Shown: one piece after another, positions 5,006 to 61,699 of the stretch | Layout: every line of letters begins with the position of its first letter | How positions within the stretch are numbered: position 1 is the stretch's first letter | IMG/VR virus record: IMGVR_UViG_3300020141_000500 | Location: 1-61,699 of that record | Direction: 5' to 3' (one strand) | Source of the DNA: a virus | DNA length: 61,699 nt | Notes under the pieces: model-generated | What the model was told of the DNA's origin: nothing | Databases searched by the model: none | The model's input: the letters and a program-made list of their open reading frames with translations, nothing else | Program-made: the position numbers and the translations under genes

Positions 5006-5046
5006 TATATTAACTATTGATTATCGCGACGGCATTATCACAATTT

Positions 5047-36536: not shown

Positions 36537-39500
36537 ATGATTAAGCAGTTTTCTGCGGGAGACATCACAGTACGGCCATTTAGCACGTTCAAGCATTGGA
36601 CATTACAAAGTATTGATTCTGCGAGCGTAAACACATATGGTGATAGTACTTATTATAATGGTAGAATAGAAGTGAATGAAGGTCTTAAACTTTCAACTCC
36701 ATTTTATCCTTCTGGTAGCATACACTATGTATCAACCAATGAACCAATAAACTCTTCTGGTAAATATGCCAGAAATATACATAGTATGACTGATGCTATG
36801 TTTTATAAGAATGCTGGCGAACCAATCAAGTTATTTGGTGTTGAAGAATATACACAAGATCCAAAAACTGGAAAAGAAGAAGTGAGAGAAATTCATGATC
36901 GTATCATTACTGCAACATTGAAACATAATGTATATGGTGAAAAAATTATACCAAATACGGTTAAACTTGTGGATGATTCTGATATTCACCAGACTCTAAA
37001 AATTCATGACGATGGTTACACCAATTTGTATGTGACAGGATCTCACTTTCCATCAACGGCGGAGATACAAGCCATAAGAGACACTCATGTATCAATTTCA
37101 CAGTGGGATACAGGCAGTGGTTTATTTTATGTAACATTTAGTAATGGTACTACGCAATATGTTGATTATGTAAATGCCAAACAATATATGGCGATGGGGC
37201 TTCAAGTAACATATGTTCCGCCAGTATCAAGTGGATCTGAGTGGGTATTAAACACAGGAAGTCACCAGGATTTATTTTTTCCCGAAAATGAACACTTTGG
37301 TGAATCTGTGAGTTGTTGGTCCAAATATGTTGCGGTTGGTTCATCTATGGATGCTTATAGTTTATCAGATGCTCGCGTTGGTCATGCGGCATTGTTCAAG
37401 TATGATGAAACTAACGGTGTTCATCGCCCAATTGCAAAGATTCATTTTCCATTTACTCAAAGTTTGACAGACACATCGTCATATTTTAAAGATTCTTTTG
37501 GAACATCTGTATGTGTGCGAGATAATTTTTTGGCGGTTGGTTCTCCAACGGGGTCTGTTTGTTCTTCAAGTATGTATCCAGGTTTTGTGTGTGTTTATGA
37601 CAGATACAAGGGTGGTGAAGATAATTGGGGAATAATTAATATTCTAAAAGGAAAAAGCAACGGCGACAGATTTGGTACTTCAGTTGCAATAGACAATGAT
37701 ATATTAGCGGTTGGTGCTACGGGTGTTAGCGGCAGTAAGGGTGCAGTATATTTGTACAGAAAGAAAAGATACATGGATTCTGAATATCCATGTCAAAATA
37801 TTGATACGGGATCTGTATGGATGCAGATTGTTACTCAAGAAGATTTTTGCAAAGAGCTACAAACAGGTTCGTATATTGCGTCACAAAGTTATACTCCAAC
37901 ATTTGTTTCTGGTAACTATACATGGGTGTATGAAACTACAATCACGTCTAGCAATCAGTCGGCTGGTGACAATTTTGGTTGGTGTGTATCTTTAGATTCA
38001 AACCGGTTGGTTGTGGGAACAAACAAAACCGGCAAAGGCTACGCGGCTGTGTTCACCTGTTCTTATCACTCAGCATCTTTATCCGCATGTCCAACTGCAT
38101 CTTGGAGCCAAAATCAACTATTCACTGCAACTTCAGATTATGGTGATTTGAATGTTGATGCACCGGAATATTCTGTTGATGTTTCTGATACTGTATCAGA
38201 TATGTTTGGTTATAGCGTAGATGTGAGCGGAAAAAATGTAATCATTGGGTGCAAAGCAGACAAGGCGTTTAAGCCATATTATGGATATACAGGAAGTGCA
38301 ATGATTCTTGGTGCGGCTTATTTATACACTTATAGATATGATGCCGATTGTTTAGCGTGGCAATATGACCTTCTGACCAAAACATTTGGAAACAGAGAAT
38401 ATTTGACCAATAATAATTTTGGACATGCTGTGTCTATTGATGGCACAATAGCGGCGGTGACATCTCTACCAGATACACTTGCAAGATCGGTGGGATATTC
38501 CGGTAGTTTATATACATTGGAAAATTATTCTTACGAATCATCCGCATCACTTGATTCTGTGTTGGGTAGAGTAACATTGTATAATTTTGATTTCACAAAT
38601 GATGCTTGGTATAGAGCTGGTGAATTGAGAAGAAACAAAGAAGAAAATCATCCATACAATATCTACGGATATTCTGTTTCTATTGCATCTGATTTTATGT
38701 GCGTTGGTGCACCAATTGTGAACACTGCATCGCTGGCATCTTATTCACAGATAATTAATCCAGTAAATCAATCTGGTTCATTTCCATCATCATATTCTGG
38801 TTCTGTGTTTGTGTATGATATGAACAAATATGAAGCTGATCCAAAGATTGGCAATGTATTTTATAAGAATGGACATTTGGTCATCACCAATACATCATCA
38901 ATGTATCATGATGTAATGACAGGAACTGGTTCTCGTGGATTTACTTTGGATTATCAAGGTGCTCATACAATATATGAACATGAATATCTTGTATCAATAA
39001 GACCGGGTGAATTTAATTATAGTACCAACCCAACTTCGTTGCAGCCAAACCCTCTTACATTTGATGTAAATCAAGATGGTGTATTCGACTATAAAGATGT
39101 TGATCTTATCATGAGATACTTGAAACTCAAGAAGTTTTATGCAGATTATGTGTTGGATGATAATGGTATTGTTTTGGAACAAGACACAAACACTGATTTT
39201 AGTTGGTGGGCAAATGATATTATTCAAACAGAAGCCGGTGATGTATTACAACAAGAGGATGATACAGCATCCAGCGTCAAATATTCATATTTGTCTGCAT
39301 TTACAAATACCGCATATATGTTTATAACAAACAATTTATATGATACTGGTTTATTGGATATTGATGGTGATGGAAAAATCAATGTGGATGATGGTTATAT
39401 ATTGGCACTATATGTGTTGAAGAGATTAAATCCAGATTCATTGGCTCAATATCTCACATCAGATTCAACTCGTAGATATGTCAAAGATATTGAAGATTAT

Positions 39501-39722
39501 CTAAATCCATATTGCGGCAACAATCCATTCAGAGTAAATCCAACATTTCTTGGTTATCAATATAGTTCATCATATGACGCAACTGGTTCATTCTTGTCAC
39601 CATGTGTTACTACGATTGGATTATATCAAGACAATCAACTTGTGGCAGTTGGTAAACTTGGCCGTCCTATAAAAAATTTAATTGATTGGCCAGTCAATAT
39701 TGTCGTCCGTTTTGATACATAA
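36537..39722 (+). CDS. Virion protein with FG-GAP beta-propeller and dockerin-like repeats (1061 aa)
   Basis: Residues 1-240 are a baseplate-type N-terminal domain (IKQFSAGDITVRPFSTFKHW). Residues about 251-764 contain about seven repeats with (F/Y)G-x-(S/A)V followed by (A/C/I)VG, for example FGTSVAIDNDILAVGATG and FGYSVDVSGKNVIIGCKA, the pattern of an FG-GAP seven-bladed propeller as in integrin alpha chains. The C-terminal module is shared with 35356. It is split by two calcium-loop segments, DVNQDGVFDYKDVDLIMRYL (about 842) and DIDGDGKINVDDGYILALYV (about 941), which match type I dockerin repeats, separated by about 80 residues. The end (TTIGLYQDNQLVAVGKLGRP) restores the shared module. 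An exposed adhesion or receptor-binding role is likely. Confidence 0.85.
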   Translation: MIKQFSAGDITVRPFSTFKHWTLQSIDSASVNTYGDSTYYNGRIEVNEGLKLSTPFYPSGSIHYVSTNEPINSSGKYARNIHSMTDAMFYKNAGEPIKLFGVEEYTQDPKTGKEEVREIHDRIITATLKHNVYGEKIIPNTVKLVDDSDIHQTLKIHDDGYTNLYVTGSHFPSTAEIQAIRDTHVSISQWDTGSGLFYVTFSNGTTQYVDYVNAKQYMAMGLQVTYVPPVSSGSEWVLNTGSHQDLFFPENEHFGESVSCWSKYVAVGSSMDAYSLSDARVGHAALFKYDETNGVHRPIAKIHFPFTQSLTDTSSYFKDSFGTSVCVRDNFLAVGSPTGSVCSSSMYPGFVCVYDRYKGGEDNWGIINILKGKSNGDRFGTSVAIDNDILAVGATGVSGSKGAVYLYRKKRYMDSEYPCQNIDTGSVWMQIVTQEDFCKELQTGSYIASQSYTPTFVSGNYTWVYETTITSSNQSAGDNFGWCVSLDSNRLVVGTNKTGKGYAAVFTCSYHSASLSACPTASWSQNQLFTATSDYGDLNVDAPEYSVDVSDTVSDMFGYSVDVSGKNVIIGCKADKAFKPYYGYTGSAMILGAAYLYTYRYDADCLAWQYDLLTKTFGNREYLTNNNFGHAVSIDGTIAAVTSLPDTLARSVGYSGSLYTLENYSYESSASLDSVLGRVTLYNFDFTNDAWYRAGELRRNKEENHPYNIYGYSVSIASDFMCVGAPIVNTASLASYSQIINPVNQSGSFPSSYSGSVFVYDMNKYEADPKIGNVFYKNGHLVITNTSSMYHDVMTGTGSRGFTLDYQGAHTIYEHEYLVSIRPGEFNYSTNPTSLQPNPLTFDVNQDGVFDYKDVDLIMRYLKLKKFYADYVLDDNGIVLEQDTNTDFSWWANDIIQTEAGDVLQQEDDTASSVKYSYLSAFTNTAYMFITNNLYDTGLLDIDGDGKINVDDGYILALYVLKRLNPDSLAQYLTSDSTRRYVKDIEDYLNPYCGNNPFRVNPTFLGYQYSSSYDATGSFLSPCVTTIGLYQDNQLVAVGKLGRPIKNLIDWPVNIVVRFDT

Positions 39723-47856: not shown

Positions 47857-49809
47857 ATGAAAATTTTATATATAGCTCCGCATTTATCAACGGGTGGATG
47901 TCCACAATTTTTGTTTAAGAAGATACAGGTTTTACACAAAGACCATGAGATATATTGTATTGAATATGCAGACCACGGATGTTTCACAGTACAAAAGAAC
48001 AAAATAAAAGAAATTCTCAAAGACAGGTTGATTTCTGTGAATTATGATCGCTCAAAAATAGTTGATATAATCAAAGATTTGGACCCAGATGTGGTGCATC
48101 TGGAAGAAATGCCAGAATATTTCATGGACAATGACATTGCTAAAAAGATATACATCAAAGATAGACGATATAAAATCATTGAAACATCGCATGACAGCAG
48201 CTTTGATCCAAAAGGTAAAGTGTTCTTTCCAGACCGATTGATATATGTGAGCAAATATCAAAAAGAAAATCTCAAAGAAATTGATGTGCCATCCGAAGTT
48301 TGTGAATATCCTATTCTAATAAATCCAAGAAAGCCAAGAGAAGAAGCACTAAGAGTGTTGGGTCTTGATCCAAAGAAAAAGCATGTGATGCATGTTGGTT
48401 TGTTCACATCAAGAAAAAACCAAAAAGAAATTATTGAGTATGCCAGAATACTCAAAGACCAACCAATACAGTTCCATTTCATTGGAAATCAAGCGGACAA
48501 TTTTAGAAGCTATTGGGAACCATTGATGAAAAATTTTCCATCCAACTGCAAATGGTGGAATGAAAGAAAAGATGTAGATAATTTTTATCAAGCAGCCGAT
48601 TTGTTTCTGTTTGTGTCTAAGGATGAAAATGGAGACAAAGAAACAAGTCCATTGGTTATACGCGAAGCAATATCATACAATATACCAACGTTGATTTATA
48701 ATTCTCCTGTGTATATGGGAATGTATGACAAATATGAAAATATAAAATATCTTGATTATGATGACAAGGATGAAAATTTAAACAGAATACTAAAAACTCT
48801 AAATCTAACAGAACCAAAAAAAATGCACATATTTCAATCCAATTGGGACATGAACGAACAAAAGATGTACTACTCGGTGAATACCAATGTAGATTTTCCT
48901 ATAATAGTCGCGTTGAGAGAATACAAGTCCGACGCTGTGTTGTGGTCTACCACATACGAAACTTTTCCACCAAATTGCAATTTTTGGATGATTCCTGTCT
49001 CAAAGAGTAACCGAGATTACTCCACAGAAGAAACATTTTCTGGCATAAAGCTTTGCATATACAAAAAAGAAACGGGCGAACAGATTTACGAGCAACCATA
49101 TTTTTATAAATTTGCAAATGTTCCAACGGTCACTTTGAGCAATCGTGCTCCATACTATGATAACTATACAGAATTTTTTGTTCGCGACAAATACAAAGAA
49201 TGGTTGGGCAACAAGAAGTTTGATGTTGCGGTTGACGTTGGTGCAAATGTAGGCGTGTTTACGCGATATTTGATACACAATAAAATAGCAAAGAGGGTTG
49301 TGTCGGTTGAATGCGACTCCGCCGCTTTATTTGATTTGAAAAGAAACTACGAATTTAACGACAATGTGAAAATAATTGAAAAAGCATTAAGCGACACGAA
49401 CGATCCAATAACATTTTATCACTGCGAAGAAAATCCAATCGTAAGCAGCACAATTCCACCGGAAAAGCTAAAACAACACATGGCCGGTGTGAGGGGAAAT
49501 GTGAAAACCACGGTTGATGCTGTTACAATAAGGGATCTGGTTGATGAACTTGGTCAAATTGATTTGTTGAAGATTGACATCGAGGGAGGCGAATACAAAA
49601 TTATAGAAAAGTTGGAAACCAAGTTGTTTGACCATATAAATAACATATTCATTGAATGTCATTTTTTTGAGGAAGATTATAAAGAAAAGTATGTATCTCT
49701 ACTTGAAAAGTTGCGCAACAATGGATATGAAGTAAAAGAATATCTATCGAATCAGTCGAATAATGCCGGAACCAGTGAATGTATTTTTGCTACTAAAAAA
49801 TCTCAATAA
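47857..49809 (+). CDS. GT4 glycosyltransferase - FkbM methyltransferase fusion (650 aa)
   Basis: Residues 1-310 are a GT-B (GT4-type) glycosyltransferase: ILYIAPHLSTGGCPQFLFKK, HLEEMPEYF, HVGLFTSRKNQKEIIEYARI, and the donor-site region DLFLFVSKDENGDKETSPLV with IREAISYNIPTLIYNS. Residues about 455-645 are an FkbM-family SAM-dependent methyltransferase (VAVDVGANVGVFTRYLI; VVSVECDSAALFDLKRNYEF; LLKIDIEGGEYKIIEKL). The linker between them (about 330-440) is unassigned. The fusion could add a sugar and then O-methylate it. It is the first gene of the second sugar island. Confidence 0.88.
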   Translation: MKILYIAPHLSTGGCPQFLFKKIQVLHKDHEIYCIEYADHGCFTVQKNKIKEILKDRLISVNYDRSKIVDIIKDLDPDVVHLEEMPEYFMDNDIAKKIYIKDRRYKIIETSHDSSFDPKGKVFFPDRLIYVSKYQKENLKEIDVPSEVCEYPILINPRKPREEALRVLGLDPKKKHVMHVGLFTSRKNQKEIIEYARILKDQPIQFHFIGNQADNFRSYWEPLMKNFPSNCKWWNERKDVDNFYQAADLFLFVSKDENGDKETSPLVIREAISYNIPTLIYNSPVYMGMYDKYENIKYLDYDDKDENLNRILKTLNLTEPKKMHIFQSNWDMNEQKMYYSVNTNVDFPIIVALREYKSDAVLWSTTYETFPPNCNFWMIPVSKSNRDYSTEETFSGIKLCIYKKETGEQIYEQPYFYKFANVPTVTLSNRAPYYDNYTEFFVRDKYKEWLGNKKFDVAVDVGANVGVFTRYLIHNKIAKRVVSVECDSAALFDLKRNYEFNDNVKIIEKALSDTNDPITFYHCEENPIVSSTIPPEKLKQHMAGVRGNVKTTVDAVTIRDLVDELGQIDLLKIDIEGGEYKIIEKLETKLFDHINNIFIECHFFEEDYKEKYVSLLEKLRNNGYEVKEYLSNQSNNAGTSECIFATKKSQ

Positions 49810-49842
49810 TAAAATCTCAATAATAAAATCTCAATAATAAAA
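49801..49842 (+). repeat. 14-bp tandem repeat (three copies)
   Basis: tctcaataataaaa occurs three times head to tail, running from the last codons of the 47857 gene across its stop to the start of the 49846 gene. Copy-number change would alter the spacing between the genes without affecting either protein much. Confidence 0.92.
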
Positions 49843-49845
49843 TCT

Positions 49846-50664
49846 ATGGTTATATTTTTATATAGCGACAAAAACTGCGAACATCAAGCAATGGCTTGCA
49901 TCAAATCATTAACTCACAAAATTACAGATGATGTAAAGATTGTATACTATACAATCGGATTCGACAGCAGGTTTGAATTCAAGAACTTAAACAAAGTTCG
50001 TATTGAATACAAACCACAATATCCAACATTTCATTTTTATAAAGCCGAGCTGTCTTTACTTACTATGCAGATGTTTCCCAATGATTATTATCTATTTACA
50101 GACACCGACGTATTGTTCTCACGAAACTTCAACTTCAACGACCATAAATATAACGAGTCATATCCCATGGCAAGTTATGGTCCACATGAATATCCATTCA
50201 TTTGGCAAGAAGTAAACGGCGTTAAGATTATTTTTAATGAAAAGAAACTAATGACATACCACGGTGTAGCCGACAGAAGTATGAGATACTGCTGGTCTTG
50301 CTTTTTTGCATTTAATCCAAACTGCAAAGAGTTTTTTGAAGAATATACTTCAATTTGTCAGAACAAATATTTGCTTGATCGCCGCAAAGATTATTTTCCA
50401 TATGCCGACGAAACTGCATTTAATGTATGCTTGTGGAAGCGCGGGGCCACTAAGAATCTAAAACAAGGATTTGTAAACACACATTCACTAGAAACGGTAA
50501 AAATTGTGGAAGAAAGAAAAGCAAAAAATAAAGTGTTTATGAACAGTGTAGACGCATTTGGTTCAAGTTGGGAAGCCGTTGAAGATCCAGATAAAGTATT
50601 GCTATATCACGGATTTAAAGAAAAAATAGAAATGGATAAGACCGTTGATTATCTGTTGGCATGA
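49846..50664 (+). CDS. GT-A-type glycosyltransferase (272 aa)
   Basis: A nucleotide-diphospho-sugar transferase fold is indicated by VIFLYSDKNCEHQAMACIKS at the start and YYLFTDTDVLFSRNF (residues about 83-97), where DTD acts as the DxD metal/donor motif. FAFNPNCKEFFEEY, DETAFNVCLWKRGATKN and LYHGFKE are typical of GT8/GT32-like proteins in their second half. The length is normal. It is probably cytoplasmic. It is expressed with the upstream fusion across the 14-bp repeat. The donor and acceptor are not predictable. Confidence 0.8.
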   Translation: MVIFLYSDKNCEHQAMACIKSLTHKITDDVKIVYYTIGFDSRFEFKNLNKVRIEYKPQYPTFHFYKAELSLLTMQMFPNDYYLFTDTDVLFSRNFNFNDHKYNESYPMASYGPHEYPFIWQEVNGVKIIFNEKKLMTYHGVADRSMRYCWSCFFAFNPNCKEFFEEYTSICQNKYLLDRRKDYFPYADETAFNVCLWKRGATKNLKQGFVNTHSLETVKIVEERKAKNKVFMNSVDAFGSSWEAVEDPDKVLLYHGFKEKIEMDKTVDYLLA

Positions 50665-50729
50665 AATTTAATAAAAATAAAATACTTGACCCAAAAAAAC
50701 GGAAGTTTTGCTAGATTGAAATAAAATAC

Positions 50730-50758
50730 TTGACATTGAGTAAAACTTTAAATATATA
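50730..50758 (+). promoter_or_regulatory. Sigma-70-type promoter, copy 1 of a duplicated element
   Basis: TTGACA (50730-50735), a 17-base spacer and TATATA (50753-50758). The surrounding sequence acttgacattgagtaaaact recurs at 52846. A degenerate third start, aaaatacttgacc, lies at 50681. The promoter drives the aminotransferase gene at 50790. Confidence 0.75.
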
Positions 50759-50789
50759 CACTGGGAAATCAAGTAAAAATGAAAATATT

Positions 50790-51419
50790 ATGGCAAACGG
50801 AATATACAGAATAACAGAAGAGTTTGAAGAAAAATTAGCAAAATACACAGGAGCACAATACGCTGTCACACTTGACAACGCTAGTAATGCCTTGTTTTTA
50901 TCGTTATATTACGAAAATATTAAAGGTTCTACTATAACCATACCCACCAGAACATACCCAAGTGTTCCATGCGAAATCATACATGCTGGCGGCAAGGTTG
51001 CATTTGAACCAGTTGAAGGTGGAACTATAAAGGGTGCATATCAATTGAAACCAACCAGAACATGGGATAGTGCATTAAGATTTACATCAAATATGTATAT
51101 TCCAAATACATTTATGTGTATTTCATTCACTGGGCCATATAAGCACTTCAAATTAAGTAAGGGTGGAGCTATTCTTACGGACGATCTTAAAGCATATCAT
51201 TGGTTCAAGCGTGCAAGATATAGCGGAAGACGTGAGTGTTCATATCACGACGACAATCTGGACATGCTTGGGTGGAACTTTTATATGATGCCGGAATTGG
51301 CCGCACGTGGTGTTCTTCTCATGAATCAATTTTATAATATGGATGGTACGCCAAAACAAAATGATGATTTGGAAATGCCATATCCGGACTTGTCAAAATT
51401 TGAAATATATAAACAATGA
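50790..51419 (+). CDS. Short DegT/DnrJ-type sugar aminotransferase (209 aa)
   Basis: The ATG at 50790 is chosen; a longer frame would start on the TTG of the -35 hexamer. YRITEEFEEKLAKYTGAQYA and VTLDNASNALFLSLYY are the N-terminal PLP-fold motifs of DegT/DnrJ/EryC1 proteins. SFTGPYKHFKLSKGGAILTD is the position of the PLP-binding lysine. The chain is about half the usual 370 residues and ends shortly after RARYSGRRE and ELAARGVLL, lacking the C-terminal domain. It is either a minimal phage form or a truncation. It would make an amino-sugar nucleotide, a fitting substrate for the acetyltransferase that overlaps it by ATGA. Confidence 0.82.
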   Translation: MANGIYRITEEFEEKLAKYTGAQYAVTLDNASNALFLSLYYENIKGSTITIPTRTYPSVPCEIIHAGGKVAFEPVEGGTIKGAYQLKPTRTWDSALRFTSNMYIPNTFMCISFTGPYKHFKLSKGGAILTDDLKAYHWFKRARYSGRRECSYHDDNLDMLGWNFYMMPELAARGVLLMNQFYNMDGTPKQNDDLEMPYPDLSKFEIYKQ

Positions 51420-51967
51420 TTCGAGGATTTTCAAATTACACAAGAGAGGAACTGATAAACTCACTTCTTTCTATCGGAGAAAACGTCTATATTTCAGACG
51501 ACGTTATATTACACAATCCACAAAACATAATTATTGGAAATAATGTTAGAATAGATTCTCAGTGTATATTGATTACAGGTAAAAATACTAAAATAAAAAT
51601 TGGAAACGACGTACATATTTCTGCCGGATGTTATTATTATGGAAATTCTGGAAATATCACACTCGAAGATTCTGTGTGTACGTCGGCTCGGTGTACATTA
51701 TATACCGCAAATGATGATTACACCGAAGGATATATGGCAAACTCTATGGCACCCAAAGAGTACAAGAAAGTAACCACCGGCGATATATTACTAAAAAAAT
51801 ATAGTCTCGTGGGATGTTATACTGTGATATTGCCAAATGTAACACTCGAACATGCCACGTCGGTTGGTGCTCACTCACTGGTAACAAAATCAACTATTCC
51901 ATTTGATATTATAGCAGGCGTTCCTGCGAAATTTATAAAGAAGAGAAAAAACGTATATCTAAATTAA
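51416..51967 (+). CDS. Hexapeptide-repeat acetyltransferase (183 aa)
   Basis: A left-handed beta-helix acyltransferase. The repeat pattern [IVL]-G-x-x is visible in NIIIGNNVRIDSQCILITGK, IKIGNDVHISAGCYYYGNSG and ILPNVTLEHATSVGAHSLVT, and the end IPFDIIAGVPAKFIKKR is the classical C-terminal motif of the WbbJ/galactoside-acetyltransferase group. The start is coupled to the aminotransferase by an ATGA overlap. Together the two genes suggest synthesis of an N-acetylated amino sugar, with O-acetylation of a glycan as the alternative. Confidence 0.9.
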   Translation: MIRGFSNYTREELINSLLSIGENVYISDDVILHNPQNIIIGNNVRIDSQCILITGKNTKIKIGNDVHISAGCYYYGNSGNITLEDSVCTSARCTLYTANDDYTEGYMANSMAPKEYKKVTTGDILLKKYSLVGCYTVILPNVTLEHATSVGAHSLVTKSTIPFDIIAGVPAKFIKKRKNVYLN

Positions 51968-51968
51968 T

Positions 51969-52925
51969 ATGAAAAAATGCGCAATTATACCATGTTTTAT
52001 AAGTAATCAATATCGGCGAGATTTGATAATCAGTCAGACTAAATTCTTCAACGATCTAAATATAGACGTAGTGTTGGTGTCATCGAATCATATAGAAAAA
52101 ATTGAAGGTGTTAAAAATTATATTACCATAAACCACGTGATTAATAAAAAGTATTTATCGGAGGGAATTTTTCCATATTGCTGTATTGATGGAATTAAAT
52201 ACTATTCGGGCACTGCTTATAGTAATATTTCCGCGTCAAACTTTTTCGTAAAATTATTTCAAGCTTCTTTTAATTATTGTAAAAATTTGGGTTATGATTT
52301 TTGTTATGTTCTTGATTTTGATAATATAATAAAAGAAAGCCACGTTGATGTCGCATTTGGCAAAAATTTAGACTATTCAAAAATTTATTTTTATGATTTG
52401 CAAAAATCAAATGAATATCAAGGTGCATTTTTTTATGGCAATTTGAATGTGTTGGTTGATATTTTTTCGGAAAAAAATCTAAACTATATAGAAAAATTAG
52501 CAACTGAAAAAAAGGTAATAACCAATGAACAAGTATTATTTGAAATATCGCAATATTATAATAAATTTATAATAGTATTAAAACATAAAGACTTTGAAAT
52601 ATTTTCAACGAGAAACATGTTTTCCAGTAGAAATGTTGCGGATATATTTTACGATGGAGAACGCAAAGAATATTGGTTTTTACAATATAAAGGAGATACC
52701 TGTGAAAACGAGTTTGCGTGTGAATTATTTTTGGACGATGTTCTTATATATTCCAACCACTTCAAACACACTAGATATTGGAGCTTGCGTAAATTGGAAA
52801 ATAATAAAAATTATAAAATAAAATATTATGACGCCGCGATATCTGACTTGACATTGAGTAAAACTATAAATATATACACTGATACAAGTACGGTTACTAC
52901 ATCAAACTGGATACAAAGAACTTAA
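51969..52925 (+). CDS. Putative GT-A-like protein of the second sugar island (318 aa)
   Basis: The N-terminus (KKCAIIPCFISNQYRRDLII; VVLVSSNH) and the central YDFCYVLDFDNIIKES suggest a nucleotide-sugar-transferase fold with DFDN in place of DxD. FKHTRYWSLRKLENNKNY and the end are unassigned. The last 30 codons overlap a copy of the duplicated promoter (52848-52876), so the C-terminal LTLSKTINIY is encoded by promoter sequence. The tail may therefore be a by-product of promoter insertion. The function is tentative. Confidence 0.65.
   Translation: MKKCAIIPCFISNQYRRDLIISQTKFFNDLNIDVVLVSSNHIEKIEGVKNYITINHVINKKYLSEGIFPYCCIDGIKYYSGTAYSNISASNFFVKLFQASFNYCKNLGYDFCYVLDFDNIIKESHVDVAFGKNLDYSKIYFYDLQKSNEYQGAFFYGNLNVLVDIFSEKNLNYIEKLATEKKVITNEQVLFEISQYYNKFIIVLKHKDFEIFSTRNMFSSRNVADIFYDGERKEYWFLQYKGDTCENEFACELFLDDVLIYSNHFKHTRYWSLRKLENNKNYKIKYYDAAISDLTLSKTINIYTDTSTVTTSNWIQRT
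52848..52876 (+). promoter_or_regulatory. Sigma-70-type promoter, copy 2 of the duplicated element
   Basis: TTGACA (52848-52853), 17-base spacer, TATATA (52871-52876), nearly identical to the promoter at 50730, but here inside the 3' end of the preceding gene. It drives the heptosyltransferase fusion at 52927. Confidence 0.75.
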
Positions 52926-52926
52926 A

Positions 52927-55062
52927 ATGAAAATAATCAATATCACGCCGGGACTTATATCAATTCCACCAAATGGGTGGGGTGCAATCGAAAAAATTAT
53001 TTGGGATTATCATCTTGAATTGAACAAGCTGAACATCCGTAATGAGATAAAATATCTCAATGATGTTAAATATGACGAAAGTATGGTTGTGCATGTACAC
53101 GTGGCTAATCTCGCCAATATGCTTCATGAACGCGGTGTTCCATACATCTTTAGCATTCATGATCATCATGCTTTTTTGTATGGTAAAGATTCTCATGTAT
53201 ATAAAGAAAATTTGAAAGCAATTGAAAATAGTGTGTTTTCTTTGTCACCATGTAAGTTTTTGATACCATATTTTGGAAGCAAAAAGTTGAGATATGTATC
53301 TCACGCCGTCAATACAGATGTATTTGCCTACAAAGCAAGAGAAATGAGCAGCAATCCAAAGTTGTTGTGCGTAGCCAACAATGGATATGCTAATGACCAA
53401 AACAAAGACCGTAAAGGGTTTGCTATTGCAATTCAAGCGGCTAAACAGTTGGGACTACCGCTTACGATTGCCGGTCCACGCAACAATGATAACTTCTTCA
53501 AAACACTTGATCCTGAACTCAACAACTATGAACAACTAACCAAGATATATGACTTGGATGAAAAGTCTCTCATTGAGTTGTATAACAGCCATGATATATT
53601 TTTACATTTCTCTGAACTAGAAGCCGGTCATCCAAATCTTACATTGTTGGAAGCAATGGCATGTGGTTTGCCCGTGGTTGGTACGTTTGAAGAACAAAAA
53701 TATAAAGGTATGGTTGTTACTTCGCGTGATATATCTGAAGCAATTCGTGGTATTGAAGATGTGAGATTAAATTATAAAGCATACAAAAATGCCGCGTTGG
53801 AAAATGCCAAAGAAAATTCATACAGCAACAGAGTACATGATTTGGCCAAACTATACAGCGAATATCGTGAATGTATTTTTGGTAATCAATTGATTGATAG
53901 TTACAAAAACACAGATGTGGTATACAAAGAGCCAAAGAAACCAGAAAACAAAATTAAAATAACTTTCGATGATGGTGCCAAGGTGGATATACCCGGCCCA
54001 GTTGACAAGAGTTATAAGATCAAGTTTATTGATTTTCACACAGGTCATGTTGTGTATGAAACCAAACTTAAAAATAACATGTGGGCATCAACTTCCACAA
54101 AGTATTTCAACAAGTGGGTGGTTGAGGTATATGACATATCAGATGGTTATGATGTATTGGTAGAAAAACACACATTTGATCCAAAAAACAAAAAAGTTAA
54201 AGTTGTGTTAGACAGCGAAAGCCTTGGGGATTTGTTGGCATGGATTGGTGCCGTCGATGAGTTTCAAAAGAAACATCAATGTATAATGGAATGTGCAGTG
54301 TTTAATAAAGTACTTCGTCCAATGTTTGAGAAGAATTATCCAAATATAAAATTCTTGGCTGTGGATGTGTATACAGATCCATATTATGCTAAATACAAGA
54401 TTGGCTGTTTTGATGGAGAAAATAGCAAGAATCATATTCCAACCGACCCAAGATTGCTCAATCTATGTTCTATTGCCACAACCATACTGGGTTTGACCAA
54501 CATAGAATACAAACCAAAGATTACTTTTGATGCCAATAAGTATAAAAATGTAAAGAAGAAGTATGTGTGTATTGCTACTCAAAGTACTTGTCAAGCAAAG
54601 TATTGGAACAACAAAACTGGATGGAAGACCGTGGTGGATTATCTAAAACGCAATGGATATGAAGTATGGTGTATTGACCGACACAATAGTTTTGGCGTAG
54701 ACAAAAGTATGAATTATATGCCAGAAGGTTGTGTAGATAAAACCGGCGACTTTACACTGGACGAACGCATGGCTCAAATAGCAGGAGCACAGTTCTTTAT
54801 TGGACTAAGTTCCGGTTTGAGTTGGTTGGCATGGGCCGTAGGCAAGCCCGTGGTGTTGATCAGTGGATTTACCAAGAGTCTGTGCGAGTTCCATACTGAA
54901 TATAGAGTGATCAATGAAAATGTGTGTAATGGCTGTTGGAACGATGTGTCCTGCAAGTTTAGTCGCAATGATTGGTTTTGGTGCCCAAGGAACAAAAACT
55001 TCGAATGTTCCAAGGAAATATCAGCCGACATGGTATTGAAACAAGTCAAAAAATTGATATAA
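52927..55062 (+). CDS. GT4 fused to TibC-like autotransporter O-heptosyltransferase (711 aa)
   Basis: Residues 1-310 are a GT4-type domain (IINITPGLISIPPNGWGAIE; ISHAVNTDVF-like VSHAVNTDVFAY; HFSELEAGHPNLTLLEAMAC). Residues about 340-711 match the bacterial autotransporter heptosyltransferase family (TibC/Aah, GT9-like). This part has the beta-domain lead (KIKFIDFHTGHVVYETKLKN ... KYFNKWVVEVYDI), SLGDLLAWIGAVDEFQKKHQ, GLSSGLSWLAWAVGKPVVLI, and a four-cysteine cluster C-x2-C-x15-C-x7-C (about 665-692; VCNGCW, FWCPRNKNFECSKEI), corresponding to the iron-finger motif of TibC. TibC-type enzymes transfer heptose to Ser of adhesin repeats. Here the likely targets would be phage adhesin-like proteins. 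Confidence 0.88.
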   Translation: MKIINITPGLISIPPNGWGAIEKIIWDYHLELNKLNIRNEIKYLNDVKYDESMVVHVHVANLANMLHERGVPYIFSIHDHHAFLYGKDSHVYKENLKAIENSVFSLSPCKFLIPYFGSKKLRYVSHAVNTDVFAYKAREMSSNPKLLCVANNGYANDQNKDRKGFAIAIQAAKQLGLPLTIAGPRNNDNFFKTLDPELNNYEQLTKIYDLDEKSLIELYNSHDIFLHFSELEAGHPNLTLLEAMACGLPVVGTFEEQKYKGMVVTSRDISEAIRGIEDVRLNYKAYKNAALENAKENSYSNRVHDLAKLYSEYRECIFGNQLIDSYKNTDVVYKEPKKPENKIKITFDDGAKVDIPGPVDKSYKIKFIDFHTGHVVYETKLKNNMWASTSTKYFNKWVVEVYDISDGYDVLVEKHTFDPKNKKVKVVLDSESLGDLLAWIGAVDEFQKKHQCIMECAVFNKVLRPMFEKNYPNIKFLAVDVYTDPYYAKYKIGCFDGENSKNHIPTDPRLLNLCSIATTILGLTNIEYKPKITFDANKYKNVKKKYVCIATQSTCQAKYWNNKTGWKTVVDYLKRNGYEVWCIDRHNSFGVDKSMNYMPEGCVDKTGDFTLDERMAQIAGAQFFIGLSSGLSWLAWAVGKPVVLISGFTKSLCEFHTEYRVINENVCNGCWNDVSCKFSRNDWFWCPRNKNFECSKEISADMVLKQVKKLI

Positions 55063-55088
55063 TAACGCAGTTATATATACTTATAAGC

Positions 55089-58000
55089 ATGGACATTTCT
55101 ATAAAGAACCTAAAAAAGTATATTTTTGAACCAAAAACAGAGTCTCTGCGTCTAAAAAGGGCCAATGAAATACTAAGTCAGAACATGGTCATCACCGAAA
55201 AGGTGGATGGAACAAAACTTACATTGGTACGTACACAGCAAGTTGATAAAGTAGATTATACCAAAAATTGGGTTGTGGCATATAAAGGAACTGTGTTATA
55301 TGCCAAAGAGTTTGCTCATTTGGGTGATAAAGAAAAGGGTGATATATCCCAATCTTCTGTTGGTATTGGTCAATATTCCATGATATTTGATCATTTGGCC
55401 AAGATAAACAATAAGATTAACAGCATTCCAAAGAGCACTGAGTTTAGTGTTGAGTTTGCTCAAAACAAAGACACATTGACTCGTACATATGTCAACAAGG
55501 GTGGCTTGTTCTTGAGAAGTTATGGTGAAGTGCAGTATCGTGTAGTTGGCGGAGATTTGCACACCATTCCAAAACAAGAAATAACAGATTACAAATCTGT
55601 GAATAAGATGGCAGAATTGTTGGAAATATCATCATTTCCCATATTCTTTCAAGGAAAACTCAGCAAGGAAAATCTGCTAAAGAATCCTTTGTTTGGATCA
55701 AAACTAACAAATGTTGATTGGTCCAATCCGACTGATGTTGTGACAAAATTTTCGGAGGCTATTCTGGCTGTTCCATCTACATTGGGTGGCACAACAGAGG
55801 GTGTGGTAATGAAGCTTGATAATGGAGAGTTCTTCAAGTTGGTGCAAGCCGATCAATATGATGCTGGAGTTCGTGGTGCAAAGAAGGACGCATATAAACT
55901 TGAACCAGAAGCCGCTTCAGCATACTTTCAACAAATCAGAGCATTGATTCAAAATATCTTTGCTGCGATTGGCACTGAAGGAAAATCCGAAGAAGATGTT
56001 ATTTCAGATTCTAATTTTTATATTGCCAAAAACGGTGCCAAGTTAAAGAAGTTCTTTGATGCTCTGCAAAAGATTGCTGGTGATAAAAAGAATATTGTTC
56101 AAATCAAAGATGACATTCACGACACTATTCGTTTGATGACATCAAAACAAGGTTTGCTTGGTTCAACGGGAAAAACTCTTGCTCTTATTCCAATTGCTGG
56201 CAAGCCGCTACACATTGGTCACTGGAAGCTTATTGAAAAAGCAGCCAATGAAAATGATAGAGTGATTGTTTATACATCATCTTCTGACAGAATAAAGAAG
56301 GGCGAGTTTCCTATAAAGGGAGATGACTTTGTGAAACTATGGAGTGATGTGTTTATTCCATCTTTACCAAATAATGTAAAAGTAAAGTTTGTTGATTCTC
56401 CAGTTCGCGCTGTTATGCATGAACTTGGATGGTTGGAACAAAGATTGACTCAAGACGCCGCAGATATGCCAACCATAAATTTGTATTCTGATAAAGACGA
56501 CGTTGAAACAAACTTTAAAGACGAAGATTTAAAAAAGTATCCAGAGTTGTTGGCGGCTAATAAAATTAAAAAAGTTGGTGTAGAAAGAACTGCTACTGTC
56601 AATGTCAGCGGAACCAAGATGCGTGAATTTTTGATGAACAATGATAAAGAATCATTCTTGAAAAATCTTCCACCGGTCAGCAACAAAGACAAAGAAGAAA
56701 TTTGGAATACTCTCATAGCAAACAAGCCAGAACCAGTATCAGAAGTTAATCCATATGCTGCTTTGGCAGAAGAATTGATACAAGCAGAAACAGAGTTGTT
56801 TCGTGAAGGTGGTTGGAGATCTACTGCTACACAATCAACTATTATAACTCCAAAGAAAGTGTCAAATATTTTGAGTACAATGAACAAGTTTGTATCAGAA
56901 TTCAATGCATATTCAAATCTTCCTCCTATAGAATCCAATGGTCCGGTAGGTTCAGCGATGTATTATAAACAAGATTTGGAAAAAGATGATGTAGAATATG
57001 GTGATATAGATATTCAAATTATATTGCCAGAAGAAAGCAATGATAGAACATCACAACTAGCATCCAATAAAAAATATTCAGACAAGATTATCCAGTTTAT
57101 TCAAGAAAAAAAACCGAGCTATATATATCCAAACTTTCAAGATAAAGACTTTGGCACAGGATATTTAATATTCAACGTTGGTGGTGAAAACATCCAAGTT
57201 GATTTGGTTTTGTCATATAAAGTATCATCAGAATGGACAAAAATTAGAACAACTCCAGAAAAAGGACTAAAAGGATTTGTTACTGGAAATCTATTGAGTG
57301 CATTGTCCGATGCTCTTAATGTTGTGCTGGGATCAAACACCAATCCATATATAAATACGATAGATGGTAAGGTTGCGTCATCTCTGATTAAAACAAACGC
57401 AAAGCCTGTGTTCTTTAGTCCAAATCAAGTATTTTTGGATATATTGAAGTTCTATGGCAATCTTGCAGGTGTTTCAAAAGTAAATTCATCAGTATTACAG
57501 GGTTATTATGGATTGGATGCAAACGATCCATCATTAAAGAAAAAATGCGAAACCGTGGTTGCTTTGAGTAAAGCACTTGATAATAACAGAGCATTTGATA
57601 AAGGAGTTGTTGTATCAAAGAATGGAACGGCATTTAAATCCAGAGAAGAATTTGTAAAATATGTATTAGATACATTCATAAAAAATATGAAATCGGCAGG
57701 CACTGCAAAAAAATTAGAAAAAGCAGAAACACCAGAAGCTATGAAAAATATTGAAAAGATAAAACGTGACGCAAATCTTGGTATAGAATTGGCAAAGCAA
57801 CTAATCAGAGAAGAAATTGCATTATTGACCGAGTCTGGTCAATCTGTTGCAATGGCATTCGATAAAAAAACAGAGACTGTCATTGGCCCAAAGACTGTCA
57901 ATGGTCAACCAGCCCAAGCCACCACAAAACTCAGGATTGTTGATCCACAAGGCAAAGACATTCGTTCTGCTGTATCTGGTGATGTGAAGGAACTTATATA

Positions 58001-59024
58001 TGCACTAAATAGTAAGGTAGGTTTTTGGAAAAAGAACAATCCATATATTGAAAATGGGTTTGTGTTCAACGGCAGTTCTCAATATCTAATGAACGGTGAT
58101 GCAAAATATAAAGATTTAGCTAAATACAAATCTGGATTTGGTGACATTGATGTGATCGTGCCAAAAGAAAAGTTGGACACAATGGAAGCATACTTGGATA
58201 ACATTGATGATAGAAAAGTGGAATGGACGCCAACACCAGAAAATAAAGTTAGTAAAAATTTTTATTATGTTGGTCGTACAAAAAATCAACGTGCTTTGGC
58301 CGGTCAAACAGTCACATTGTGGTATTATGCTCCAGTAAAACAAGTAGTACAAATTGACTTTGAAGGAGATGAAATGACACTTGATCCACAGGGATTTGAA
58401 AAACCATCTGAATGGAACAAGTTTATCAAAGATTCTCCATGGCAAGATTTGACCATAGGAATCAAAGGATTGGCAGGAGCTATTTTGTTGCGTGGTCTGA
58501 CACGAGCAGCAACCGCAATACCAAATGCTGTGTATGTCACCAACTCAACTGCACTCAAGATACAATCCGGTGAGTTGAAGAGTTTGGTTAATACCAAGGG
58601 CAAGAGCATGGTTTCTACAAACGCTATTCACTCACTGCTTTCGCAATATACATTGAATACAAGCGGTTCTGGTCATGCTGGTGTTCGCAAGGCATACCGC
58701 CTTGTTGCTAAGAACATGGATCATGAAGGTAAGAAAGTTGATGTTTATACCGACATTGCTGCCAGCGAAAGCAAACCAGAAGATCGTATCAACAGCGTAA
58801 ATAAAGTATTTGAACTAATTTTTAAACGCAAGCCAAGTAGTCAAGATGTTGAAAACTTCAGAAGTTATGTTGGATTGCTGACACTCATGAAGACTCTACC
58901 AAAAGATGTTCAAGTCAACGCGTTGGAAAAAGCCAAGGACGGTTTGACTCAAGCAGGTTTGGAACCGGCAGAATATGCTCCAATTCAAAAAGCAGCCAAA
59001 ACGATTTTGGGAATATCCATATAA
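55089..59024 (+). CDS. Multidomain RNA/DNA ligase-like, adenylyltransferase-like and nucleotidyltransferase protein (1311 aa)
   Basis: The ATG at 55089 is used; the longer frame overlaps the upstream gene. Residues 1-330: nucleotidyltransferase of the ligase superfamily, with the Lys-x-Asp-Gly motif EKVDGTKLTLV (Lys 38) and EGVVMKLDNGEFFKLV. Residues about 365-530: a cytidylyltransferase/NMNAT-like domain with LIPIAGKPLHIGHWKLIEKA (HxGH) and VSGTKMREFL (ISxTxxR). About 590-830: a polymerase-beta-type domain with YGDIDIQIILP. About 905: an internal LAKQLIREEIALLTE like the N-terminal tag elsewhere. About 930-1311: a second such domain with GFGDIDVIVPKE. It may repair or modify nucleic-acid ends and recycle NAD. 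The exact role is unknown. Confidence 0.85.
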   Translation: MDISIKNLKKYIFEPKTESLRLKRANEILSQNMVITEKVDGTKLTLVRTQQVDKVDYTKNWVVAYKGTVLYAKEFAHLGDKEKGDISQSSVGIGQYSMIFDHLAKINNKINSIPKSTEFSVEFAQNKDTLTRTYVNKGGLFLRSYGEVQYRVVGGDLHTIPKQEITDYKSVNKMAELLEISSFPIFFQGKLSKENLLKNPLFGSKLTNVDWSNPTDVVTKFSEAILAVPSTLGGTTEGVVMKLDNGEFFKLVQADQYDAGVRGAKKDAYKLEPEAASAYFQQIRALIQNIFAAIGTEGKSEEDVISDSNFYIAKNGAKLKKFFDALQKIAGDKKNIVQIKDDIHDTIRLMTSKQGLLGSTGKTLALIPIAGKPLHIGHWKLIEKAANENDRVIVYTSSSDRIKKGEFPIKGDDFVKLWSDVFIPSLPNNVKVKFVDSPVRAVMHELGWLEQRLTQDAADMPTINLYSDKDDVETNFKDEDLKKYPELLAANKIKKVGVERTATVNVSGTKMREFLMNNDKESFLKNLPPVSNKDKEEIWNTLIANKPEPVSEVNPYAALAEELIQAETELFREGGWRSTATQSTIITPKKVSNILSTMNKFVSEFNAYSNLPPIESNGPVGSAMYYKQDLEKDDVEYGDIDIQIILPEESNDRTSQLASNKKYSDKIIQFIQEKKPSYIYPNFQDKDFGTGYLIFNVGGENIQVDLVLSYKVSSEWTKIRTTPEKGLKGFVTGNLLSALSDALNVVLGSNTNPYINTIDGKVASSLIKTNAKPVFFSPNQVFLDILKFYGNLAGVSKVNSSVLQGYYGLDANDPSLKKKCETVVALSKALDNNRAFDKGVVVSKNGTAFKSREEFVKYVLDTFIKNMKSAGTAKKLEKAETPEAMKNIEKIKRDANLGIELAKQLIREEIALLTESGQSVAMAFDKKTETVIGPKTVNGQPAQATTKLRIVDPQGKDIRSAVSGDVKELIYALNSKVGFWKKNNPYIENGFVFNGSSQYLMNGDAKYKDLAKYKSGFGDIDVIVPKEKLDTMEAYLDNIDDRKVEWTPTPENKVSKNFYYVGRTKNQRALAGQTVTLWYYAPVKQVVQIDFEGDEMTLDPQGFEKPSEWNKFIKDSPWQDLTIGIKGLAGAILLRGLTRAATAIPNAVYVTNSTALKIQSGELKSLVNTKGKSMVSTNAIHSLLSQYTLNTSGSGHAGVRKAYRLVAKNMDHEGKKVDVYTDIAASESKPEDRINSVNKVFELIFKRKPSSQDVENFRSYVGLLTLMKTLPKDVQVNALEKAKDGLTQAGLEPAEYAPIQKAAKTILGISI

Positions 59025-59706: not shown

Positions 59707-60058
59707 TATAATCGAAGGATTGGCAATCAGAGTAAAGAACAAATACCCAGAAAAAGGTATGTGTGAGTTTATTGCGAAAGATTTGGTAAAAGAACTAAAA
59801 AGTCGTGGTATAAATGCTAAACATGTTGAAGGTAATTTCACATTGGACGAACCAGCAGCATATCAATTTATTAGTCCATTGGATGAAGTAAATGATGAAT
59901 ATACCATAGACCATGATTGGGTGGAAGTAGAAGGTGTGATTGTTGATGCATCAGCTTCTCAATTTAGAAAATATGTGTATGAACAAATACCAGACATTGT
60001 AATGGCAAATTATACACATCCGTTATATACCAAATACGAACCGCACAATTATGTCTAA
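59675..60058 (+). CDS. Hypothetical protein, possible papain/transglutaminase-like fold (127 aa)
   Basis: A helix with KGMCEFIAKDLVKELKSRGI, a strand (AKHVEGNF), then DHDWVEVEGVIVDASASQF give Cys, His and Asp in the order of a papain-like/transglutaminase-like triad. These are visible candidates, not a proven active site. The end (YTHPLYTKYEPHNYV) is conserved-looking. It overlaps the upstream gene by 32 bases and the terminase start by eight, so it is translationally coupled to packaging genes. Confidence 0.75.
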   Translation: MKLTQFLHQSDIIEGLAIRVKNKYPEKGMCEFIAKDLVKELKSRGINAKHVEGNFTLDEPAAYQFISPLDEVNDEYTIDHDWVEVEGVIVDASASQFRKYVYEQIPDIVMANYTHPLYTKYEPHNYV

Positions 60059-61699
60059 TACGACAAAAAATATTAGAGATGTAATTCGGGAAGAGTATAT
60101 AAAGTGTGCCAAAGATCCTATATACTTCATGAAGAAGTATGTAAAGATTCAACATCCTATTCGCGGCACATTGCCATTTCTTACTTATCCATTTCAAGAC
60201 AGAACTTTGACCGACTTGATCAAATATGATCAAAACATTATTCTCAAAAGTCGTCAGATGGGTATTACTACACTAGTTGCTGCATATTCATTGTGGCTCA
60301 TGGTGTTTCATGAAAACAAAGAAATCATTTGTTTGAGTATCACACAAGAAACATCCAAAGCAATTGTAACCAAAGTTCGTTTTGCCAATGACAATCTACC
60401 AAGTTGGTTGAAACTGAAAGAATCAGAAGACAATCGACTGTCATTGAAACTATCCAACGGTTCCAAGATTGTTGCTATTTCATCAGCCGGTACAGCCGGT
60501 CGTTCGGGTGCTGCATCTTTGCTGATCATTGACGAAGCTGCGTTCATCGACAATATCGACGAAATCTGGTTGTCTTCTCAATACACTTTGGCTACTGGTG
60601 GTAAAGCGGTTGTGTTGTCTACACCAAATGGTGTGGGTAATTGGTTTCACAAAATGTGGACAGAAAGCGAAGCTGGTCTAAACAACATGAATCGTATTAG
60701 CTTGCCTTGGAATCATCATCCAGAACGCGACCAAAAATGGCGCGATGAACAAACCAAGTTGTCTAGCGAAAAAGGAGCGGCACAAGAATGTGATTGTGAA
60801 TTTAGTACGTCAGGCAATACCGTTATTGATATTCCACTACTAGAATGGTATGAAAAAAATCATGCGATTGATCCAACAGAAAAGCGTGGATTTGATAAAG
60901 GATTGTGGATATACAAATATCCAGAAGCTGGTAAAAGTTATATGATAAGTGCCGACGTTGGTCGAGGAGATGCCGCCGACTTTAGTGCGTGTCAAGTGTT
61001 GGAAATAGAAACAATGGAACAAGTGGCAGAATACAAAGGAAAAATACCAACAAGTGATTATGCTCGGTTGCTCATGACAATTGCAACTGAATATAATCAA
61101 GCATTGCTTGTTATAGAAAATGCCAATGTAGGATGGGCAGTTATACAAGTTGTATTAGACAGCAACTATCCAAATCTATTTTATAGTTCATCAGATTTAC
61201 AATATGTGGATGTGGAATCGCAATCCACAAACAAGATAAATGCAGAAGAACGCAAAATGACACCGGGCTTTACTACATCCAACAAGTCTAGACCGCTTCT
61301 AATATCCAAGCTTGAAAGTTATATTCGCAATAAAGAAGTAATCATACACAGCAAGCGATTATTGGAAGAATTGAATGTATTCATATGGAAAAACACCGGT
61401 GGATCGTCTGCCAAAGCAGAAGCCATGACTGGTTATAATGATGACCTTGTATTGTCAATGGCTATTGGATTATGGATAAGAGATGTAGCATTGAGATTGA
61501 GAAAAGAAGCAGATGAATCTACTCGTCTTATAATATCAAAGATTGGTTCTACATCCAACGAACAGATAAAAAATAATATGGTGGCGTTGCATAAATCTGG
61601 GAATAATCCTTATGGAGTTTATAGCAATCCTTGGAAAATGAGTATTGGTGGACCAAGTGGTGTTGGTGGACAGAGTAAAACAGAAGATCTAACATGGCT
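60051..61699 (+). CDS. gp17: Terminase large subunit gp17-like (3' truncated by the window)
   Basis: The ATG at 60051 opens 549 codons with no stop before the right edge. The N-terminal ATPase has Walker A LKSRQMGITT (about 66-75), the divergent P-loop of T4-type terminases, and Walker B SLLIIDEAAFID (about 156-167), followed by VVLSTPNGVGNWFHKMW. The C-terminal RNase H-like nuclease has YMISADVGRGDAADFSACQV (about 296), LVIENANVGWAVIQV and GYNDDLVLSMAIGLW. It packages and cuts concatemeric DNA. Only the last residues are missing relative to T4 gp17 (610). Confidence 0.95.
   Translation, partial: MSNTTKNIRDVIREEYIKCAKDPIYFMKKYVKIQHPIRGTLPFLTYPFQDRTLTDLIKYDQNIILKSRQMGITTLVAAYSLWLMVFHENKEIICLSITQETSKAIVTKVRFANDNLPSWLKLKESEDNRLSLKLSNGSKIVAISSAGTAGRSGAASLLIIDEAAFIDNIDEIWLSSQYTLATGGKAVVLSTPNGVGNWFHKMWTESEAGLNNMNRISLPWNHHPERDQKWRDEQTKLSSEKGAAQECDCEFSTSGNTVIDIPLLEWYEKNHAIDPTEKRGFDKGLWIYKYPEAGKSYMISADVGRGDAADFSACQVLEIETMEQVAEYKGKIPTSDYARLLMTIATEYNQALLVIENANVGWAVIQVVLDSNYPNLFYSSSDLQYVDVESQSTNKINAEERKMTPGFTTSNKSRPLLISKLESYIRNKEVIIHSKRLLEELNVFIWKNTGGSSAKAEAMTGYNDDLVLSMAIGLWIRDVALRLRKEADESTRLIISKIGSTSNEQIKNNMVALHKSGNNPYGVYSNPWKMSIGGPSGVGGQSKTEDLTW

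Follow-up and report, generated by a model that had tools for sequence, protein, structure and literature searches.

A phage protein that joins a GT4 glycosyltransferase to a TibC-type autotransporter heptosyltransferase domain

Autotransporter heptosyltransferases of the TibC/AAH type (BAHT enzymes) are known as modifiers of bacterial virulence adhesins. What, then, would such an enzyme be doing in a phage? The question is raised by a 711-residue protein encoded in IMG/VR virus record IMGVR_UViG_3300020141_000500 (61.7 kb; positions 1 to 61,699, referred to here as the window), which is a fragment of a viral genome. The protein combines an N-terminal GT4 domain with a C-terminal BAHT half (Table 1), and its gene lies within a co-oriented gene run. 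We consider it reasonably probable that the product is a bifunctional protein O-glycosyltransferase of the phage, adding heptose first and a second sugar through the GT4 domain, probably on virion appendages. The phage origin assumed in the initial annotation is borne out by the gp17-like terminase of T4 type and the baseplate wedge genes found in the window. These genes and a PhoH gene were recognized by profile matches, while primase- and SbcC-like genes were assigned by reading the sequence only.

Family membership and conserved sites

The C-terminal half belongs to the BAHT family. Over its ~370 residues, the TIGR04414 model scores 385.3 bits against a cut-off of 200 and is covered from position 9 to 374 of 374, whereas the models of lipopolysaccharide (LPS) heptosyltransferases (RfaC/RfaF/RfaQ, GT9) score 18.7–30.8 bits against cut-offs of 134.6–467, none of which is reached. 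Calibration of TIGR04414 on 399 Pseudomonadota genomes places family members, found in 8 genomes, at 484–650 bits and all other proteins, including ordinary GT9 enzymes, at 40.3 bits or below. TibC (4rap) is the best match in the PDB both by sequence (E 9e-76) and by predicted fold (Foldseek E 9e-36; TM 0.86 on TibC). The AlphaFold2 model, with a mean predicted local distance difference test (pLDDT) score of 87, superposes on TibC over 387 columns, the beta-barrel included; its strands are predicted at residues 344–416. PF21129 (TibC_1st) scores 24.3, just below its cut-off of 27, though the beta domain is visible in the model.

These comparisons agree with the initial annotation, which had proposed that the C-terminal half follows the block order of the family. 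The beta lead domain (residues 343–423), the SLGDLLAW block (432–439) and the block GLSSGLSWLAWAVGKPVVLI (626–645) are present in this order, as is the cysteine cluster of C-x2-C-x15-C spacing. A fourth cysteine, C694, completes the cluster, which makes the site a full Cys4. What had been named as contrary to the proposal, an ordinary LPS heptosyltransferase with variable cysteines, is the opposite of what was found, the cysteines being invariant in 56 of 56 viral and 9 of 9 bacterial open reading frames (ORFs). The reading of this domain as an ordinary GT9 or LPS-type heptosyltransferase acquired from a host, resembling TibC by chance, could appeal to its match with PF01075 (GT9), which TibC relatives give as well, and is already refuted by the TIGR04414 score (385 bits versus at most 40 for ordinary GT9), the full Cys4, the beta-barrel and the rank of TibC as best match by sequence and structure alike.

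Residue roles were transferred from the published work on TibC (PMC4358343), and conservation was assessed over 56 distinct viral and 9 bacterial ORFs. In TibC, D110 is the catalytic base, T226 and K230 contact phosphate, R286 contacts the adenine, W305 contacts the donor, and C339, C342, C358 and C370 coordinate iron in a finger that contacts the protein acceptor (PMC4358343). D110, T226, K230, W305 and all four cysteines are identical in 56/56 viral ORFs. R286 is kept in 47 of them, the window protein having R614 at this position. The position that governs stereoselectivity, P300 in TibC, varies among the viral ORFs (P/S/G). It is Ser in the window protein versus Pro in TibC, as it is in AAH (the AIDA-I heptosyltransferase of diffusely adhering E. 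coli), where Ser294 permits both heptose epimers, D,D- and L,D-, to be accepted (PMC4358343). The last finger pair is spaced C-x7-C in the phage protein versus C-x11-C in TibC.

The thumb differs as well. Mutation of its tip pair F265-V266 breaks the TibC dodecamer and abolishes activity (PMC4358343), and Phe-Val is retained at the tip by 7 of the 9 bacterial ORFs. The tip is a structural feature of the studied members that lies outside the family cut-off, and it bears on assembly, not on homology. Because the catalytic and metal-binding residues are invariant while the thumb tip has changed, we predict that the chemistry and the metal site are kept and that the assembly differs.

Thus, the phage protein shares with TibC of enterotoxigenic E. 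coli (4rap/4rb4) the beta-barrel, the GT-B core, the catalytic Asp, the donor contacts and the Cys4 iron finger. TibC and AAH, however, are unfused bacterial enzymes with autotransporters as acceptors, whereas in the phage protein the domain is joined to GT4 and devoid of the hydrophobic thumb tip. No autotransporter partner was recognized among the window proteins scanned, a set that leaves out some small ORFs of this fragmentary record. The N-terminal domain has the GT4 fold, as indicated by Foldseek matches to MshA, BshA and AviGT4, with which it shares 13–19% identity, and by a Glycos_transf_1 match of 42 bits. Its E-x9-E motif differs from the usual E-x7-E of GT4 enzymes. At least 90% of 30 homologues align with the start Met of the fusion.

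Spread among viruses and repeated fusion

The window protein is not an isolated case. A first search returned 77 viral loci, most with the full fusion, at 44–98% identity, and a profile search raised the number of confirmed relatives in viral stretches to at least 587; clustering at 80% identity gave 72 clusters. The BAHT domain is found in only 4 of 50,697 phage records, namely that of the Microcystis phage Mel-JY01 and three metagenomic ones, two of 735 kb and one of 636 kb. The Mel-JY01 protein, annotated as "methyltransferase FkbM" (WWT39291), is a single GT4-FkbM-BAHT chain of 1226 residues, in which FkbM is assigned by the record annotation and the BAHT domain occupies residues 864–1224 (317 bits). 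A T4-type terminase lies nearby, and a collagen-like Ser/Thr protein is encoded 1.7 kb from the BAHT gene. The predicted structure of A0A6J5SVC1, a UniProt entry of an uncultured Caudovirales phage, also matches our model (BFVD; E 2e-35). Because BFVD lists this protein as "Glycosyltransferase Aah/TibC", a name given by automatic annotation, databases already record that phage members as such exist. No study of phage BAHT members was found in the literature searched, whose coverage excludes most subscription journals. A paper on Campylobacter phages (PMC4283603) was considered and set aside, since where it speaks of heptose it deals with spacers and genes of the host, not with genes of phages.

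The fusion partners of viral BAHT domains comprise GT4, GT2 together with GT4, GT9, FkbM methyltransferase and SDR domains, in architectures such as GT4-BAHT-FkbM, BAHT-FkbM-SDR and GT2-GT4-BAHT-FkbM. On a 69-row tree, 13 label changes are needed to explain the forms with an N-terminal fusion, a count somewhat inflated by a few "stand-alone" rows that are contig fragments; at least 12 of the changes are forced by supported branches, so gain or loss of the fusion has occurred many times. All six bacterial sequences group in a single supported clade, within a narrow sampling of bacteria. That the BAHT domain was repeatedly and separately fused with further glycosyltransferases and with FkbM methyltransferases lends indirect support to the initial suggestion of a two-step glycan assembly on a protein acceptor.

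Two variations on the fused architecture were also observed. The BAHT beta-barrel domain is tandemly duplicated in the fusion proteins of two loci (L068:9953-12367 and L057), and in two others (L248 and L258) a second GT9 match within the BAHT chain gives two heptosyltransferase-like domains per chain.

Donor, acceptor and alternative readings

In the mechanism that we propose, the BAHT domain most likely moves glycero-manno-heptose from ADP-heptose to Ser or Thr of a protein; D435 would act as the base, K558, T554 and W633 would hold the donor, and, as in TibC, the Cys4 iron finger would hold the dimer and the acceptor site. A second sugar is then most likely attached by the GT4 domain, and the GT4-FkbM protein encoded in the same island would cap the glycan by O-methylation. 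We infer the heptose-transfer step from family membership and the intact sites, the extension and methylation steps from the fusion and the neighbourhood, and the acceptor from what co-occurs with the enzyme in related phages. A repetitive virion appendage is the probable acceptor, as related phages encode Ser/Thr-rich collagen-like proteins nearby, some of them S74 tail fibres; in the phage of the window, the Thr-Pro linkers are one possibility and some other structural protein is another.

Homologues of heptose-activating enzymes accompany the fusion in a sister clade. In these loci (L073 and L075–L078) the fusion gene is followed by genes for a cupin, an HldC-like nucleotidyltransferase and an HldA-like kinase. 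The best NCBIfam matches in L073 and L076 are TIGR02199 for the HldC-like gene (100 bits; cut-off 181.5) and TIGR02198 for the HldA-like gene (121–124 bits; cut-off 345). The cassette looks like a self-contained protein heptosylation module. HldA-like kinases are also encoded near BAHT genes in three loci that share the terminase lineage of the window (L417, L418 and L427); the 735-kb phage has a nearly full-length HldA match of 306 bits, below the cut-off, and the 636-kb phage has GmhA, above its cut-off, ~27 kb from the BAHT gene. Altogether, TIGR02198 matches occur in 10 of 52 records. The rfaE gene of pelagimyophages (PMC7029224) offers a precedent for such genes in phages. As a side observation, the compact cassette in L073 (9032-17876) and L075–L078 ends with a convergently oriented gene for a giant (GSSGTSG)n protein.

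Several observations weigh against the proposed protein heptosylation. On the donor side, the HldA- and HldC-like matches of the L073-type phages are far under the curated cut-offs, and heptose-synthesis genes were found neither in the window, a fragment, nor in relatives of 185 and 297 kb, the longest of its lineage, so that ADP-heptose would have to be supplied by the host there. Arg286 is lost in the deeper viral clades (9 of 56 ORFs), and the hydrophobic thumb tip, Lys-Ser in the window protein and varied in the viral ORFs, is not kept. The loss of Arg286, the variability of position 300, the missing synthesis genes of this lineage and a host that may be without ADP-heptose would suit an enzyme that keeps the fold and the metal site and uses another nucleotide sugar, and so O-glycosylates proteins without being a heptosyltransferase. 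We regard this as distinctly unlikely, given that the window protein keeps Arg614, T554, K558 and W633, that its S628 matches AAH, which accepts both epimers of ADP-heptose, and that several BAHT phages encode homologues of HldA, HldC or GmhA.

With regard to the acceptor, very long ORFs of the (GSSGTSG)n type lie near several BAHT genes, and three of the five such proteins examined contain collagen repeats together with a Peptidase_S74 chaperone domain, which is known from phage tail fibres and spikes. Ser/Thr collagen-like repeats occur in 24 of 143 loci picked by BAHT (9 of 47 clusters) versus none in a GC-matched random set of 120 viral loci (p 6e-6 by cluster), an excess that is in part due to the greater average length of the BAHT-picked loci (~17 kb versus 9 kb). 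Conversely, 8 of 120 viral stretches picked by the repeat carry a BAHT gene versus 1 among the 239 stretches that make up two control sets (p 9e-4), or versus 1 of 120 when compared with the random set alone (p 0.04). The random GC-matched control was added because much of the signal from the GPX collagen pattern, tried as a control, proved to be out-of-frame GC-rich DNA; a BAHT gene was absent from all 62 loci that had GPX in frame but lacked the Ser/Thr repeat. Tight linkage within loci was considered too and is not claimed, as the genes are not significantly closer than chance on short loci; the claim is limited to co-occurrence.

The objections on the acceptor side concern this very association. 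The collagen-like gene within a locus is not significantly nearer to BAHT than expected by chance (p 0.08), the co-occurrence may partly reflect a shared phage type, and the window, which is a fragment, showed no Ser/Thr protein of the collagen-like type. The Thr-Pro linkers do not track the enzyme either: of 37 records with a BAHT gene, only 9 contain the TPTPTPT pattern, all of them from the wider lineage of the window. Thus, the linkers, which the initial annotation had named for an in-vitro assay with ADP-heptose, are not supported as the general acceptor. The same protein-heptosyltransferase chemistry might instead be directed at a host surface protein or LPS, the phage remodelling the cell surface, for example, to block superinfection. 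The glycosyltransferases of T4-like aquatic phages, including rfaE, which occurs in pelagimyophages, are usually interpreted in this way (PMC7029224), and the acetyltransferase, aminotransferase-like and methyltransferase genes of the island are typical of surface glycan clusters. Nevertheless, TIGR04414 is an equivalog of protein O-glycosylation and not of LPS heptosyltransferases, the iron finger that contacts the acceptor in TibC is invariant, and the enzyme co-occurs with the collagen-like fibre proteins of the phages themselves. A host-surface acceptor is, in our opinion, unlikely, and modification of virion appendages is preferred.

The Thr-Pro-rich low-complexity stretches are found in five window ORFs (2-439, 3410-4366, 5017-6462, 9445-12093 and 18995-20512), and in one of the proteins as many as 74 Thr residues fall within runs. 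Their DNA repeat is GC-rich (45% around 10–12 kb versus ~36% elsewhere). Directly downstream of ORF 9445-12093, the largest of the five, lie two other glycosyltransferase genes (12455-15555; phrog_24687, and phrog_2170 with phrog_2835 glucosyltransferase), which make this region a candidate second glycosylation cassette.

The glycan island, its phage setting and significance

The fusion gene comes last in a glycan island (47857-55062) of variable content that precedes the terminase gene. In 11 of the 20 locus sets that were compared, the GT4-FkbM family shares the island with the GT4-BAHT gene, mostly adjacent or a few genes away; the remaining island genes differ from locus to locus.

Table 1. 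Coordinates of the fusion gene, its domains and motifs, and neighbouring genes in the window
Feature	Coordinates	Strand	Remarks
GT4-FkbM methyltransferase fusion, 650 aa	47857..49809	+	
272-aa island protein, without confident family match	49846..50664	+	Family in 5 locus sets
Short DegT/DnrJ aminotransferase-like protein	50730..51419	+	
Hexapeptide acetyltransferase-like protein	51416..51967	+	
318-aa protein directly upstream of the fusion, without confident family	51969..52925	+	
GT4-BAHT fusion protein, 711 aa	52927..55062	+	ATG 52927, stop 55060-55062
GT4 glycosyltransferase domain, residues 1-327	52927..53907	+	R162-K163 and E232/E242 (E-x9-E) invariant in 30 homologues
Flexible inter-domain linker, residues 328-342	53908..53952	+	Low pLDDT
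TibC-type N-terminal beta-barrel ("lead") domain, residues 343-423	53953..54195	+	
BAHT GT-B catalytic domain, residues 424-711	54196..55059	+	
SLGDLLAW	54220..54243	+	D435 = TibC catalytic base D110
STCQAK	54583..54600	+	T554/K558 = TibC T226/K230
Beta-hairpin thumb	54682..54717	+	Tip Lys-Ser versus TibC F265-V266
GLSSGLSWLAWAVGKPVVLI	54802..54861	+	S628 = AAH Ser294/TibC Pro300; W633 = TibC W305
Iron finger	54925..55008	+	C667-x2-C670-x15-C686-x7-C694
T4-type large terminase, gp17-like	60051..61697	+	Downstream of glycan island; marks phage context

Further features of the window deserve mention. A near-repeat peptide, TLSKTINIYT/TLSKTLNIYT, occurs near the end of the 318-residue ORF (52800-52925) and at the start of the DegT-like ORF that lies two genes upstream of it (50730-50780), and is possibly a recombination scar in the island. 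A beta domain common to the neighbours P0002 and P0003, alike by eye, was rejected at an hhalign probability of ~0.1%. The ORF at 54972-59024 (1350 residues) combines RNA-ligase-like, HxGH nucleotidyltransferase-like (NMNAT-type) and further domains; ATG 55089 is its probable start, and only with an earlier start would it overlap the end of the fusion gene. An HldE-like reading of its cytidylyltransferase fold was discarded, as TIGR02199 has no match in the window and the phrogs include an NMNAT-like match. In the structural region, a 1061-residue protein (36537-39722) contains FG-GAP repeats and a dockerin-like stretch.

The viral copies number in the hundreds at the least and come in many architectures, which makes phages a major reservoir of protein heptosyltransferases. 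These copies may also be informative about where the bacterial BAHT enzymes originated, and the fused enzymes are ready-made tools for two-step glycosylation. More tentatively, and we would put this on the doubtful side of even, there could be a large unrecognized class of phages with a protein O-heptosylation pathway of their own, comprising activating enzymes, a protein heptosyltransferase linked with enzymes for extension and methylation, and collagen-like tail fibres rich in Ser/Thr as hyperglycosylated acceptors. If so, these virions would be densely coated with glycans, much as bacterial adhesins are. Heptosylation of virion fibres would provide a function for the "LPS-type" sugar genes of phages, usually taken as modifiers of the host surface, and a testable role for the collagen-like Ser/Thr repeats of phage fibres.
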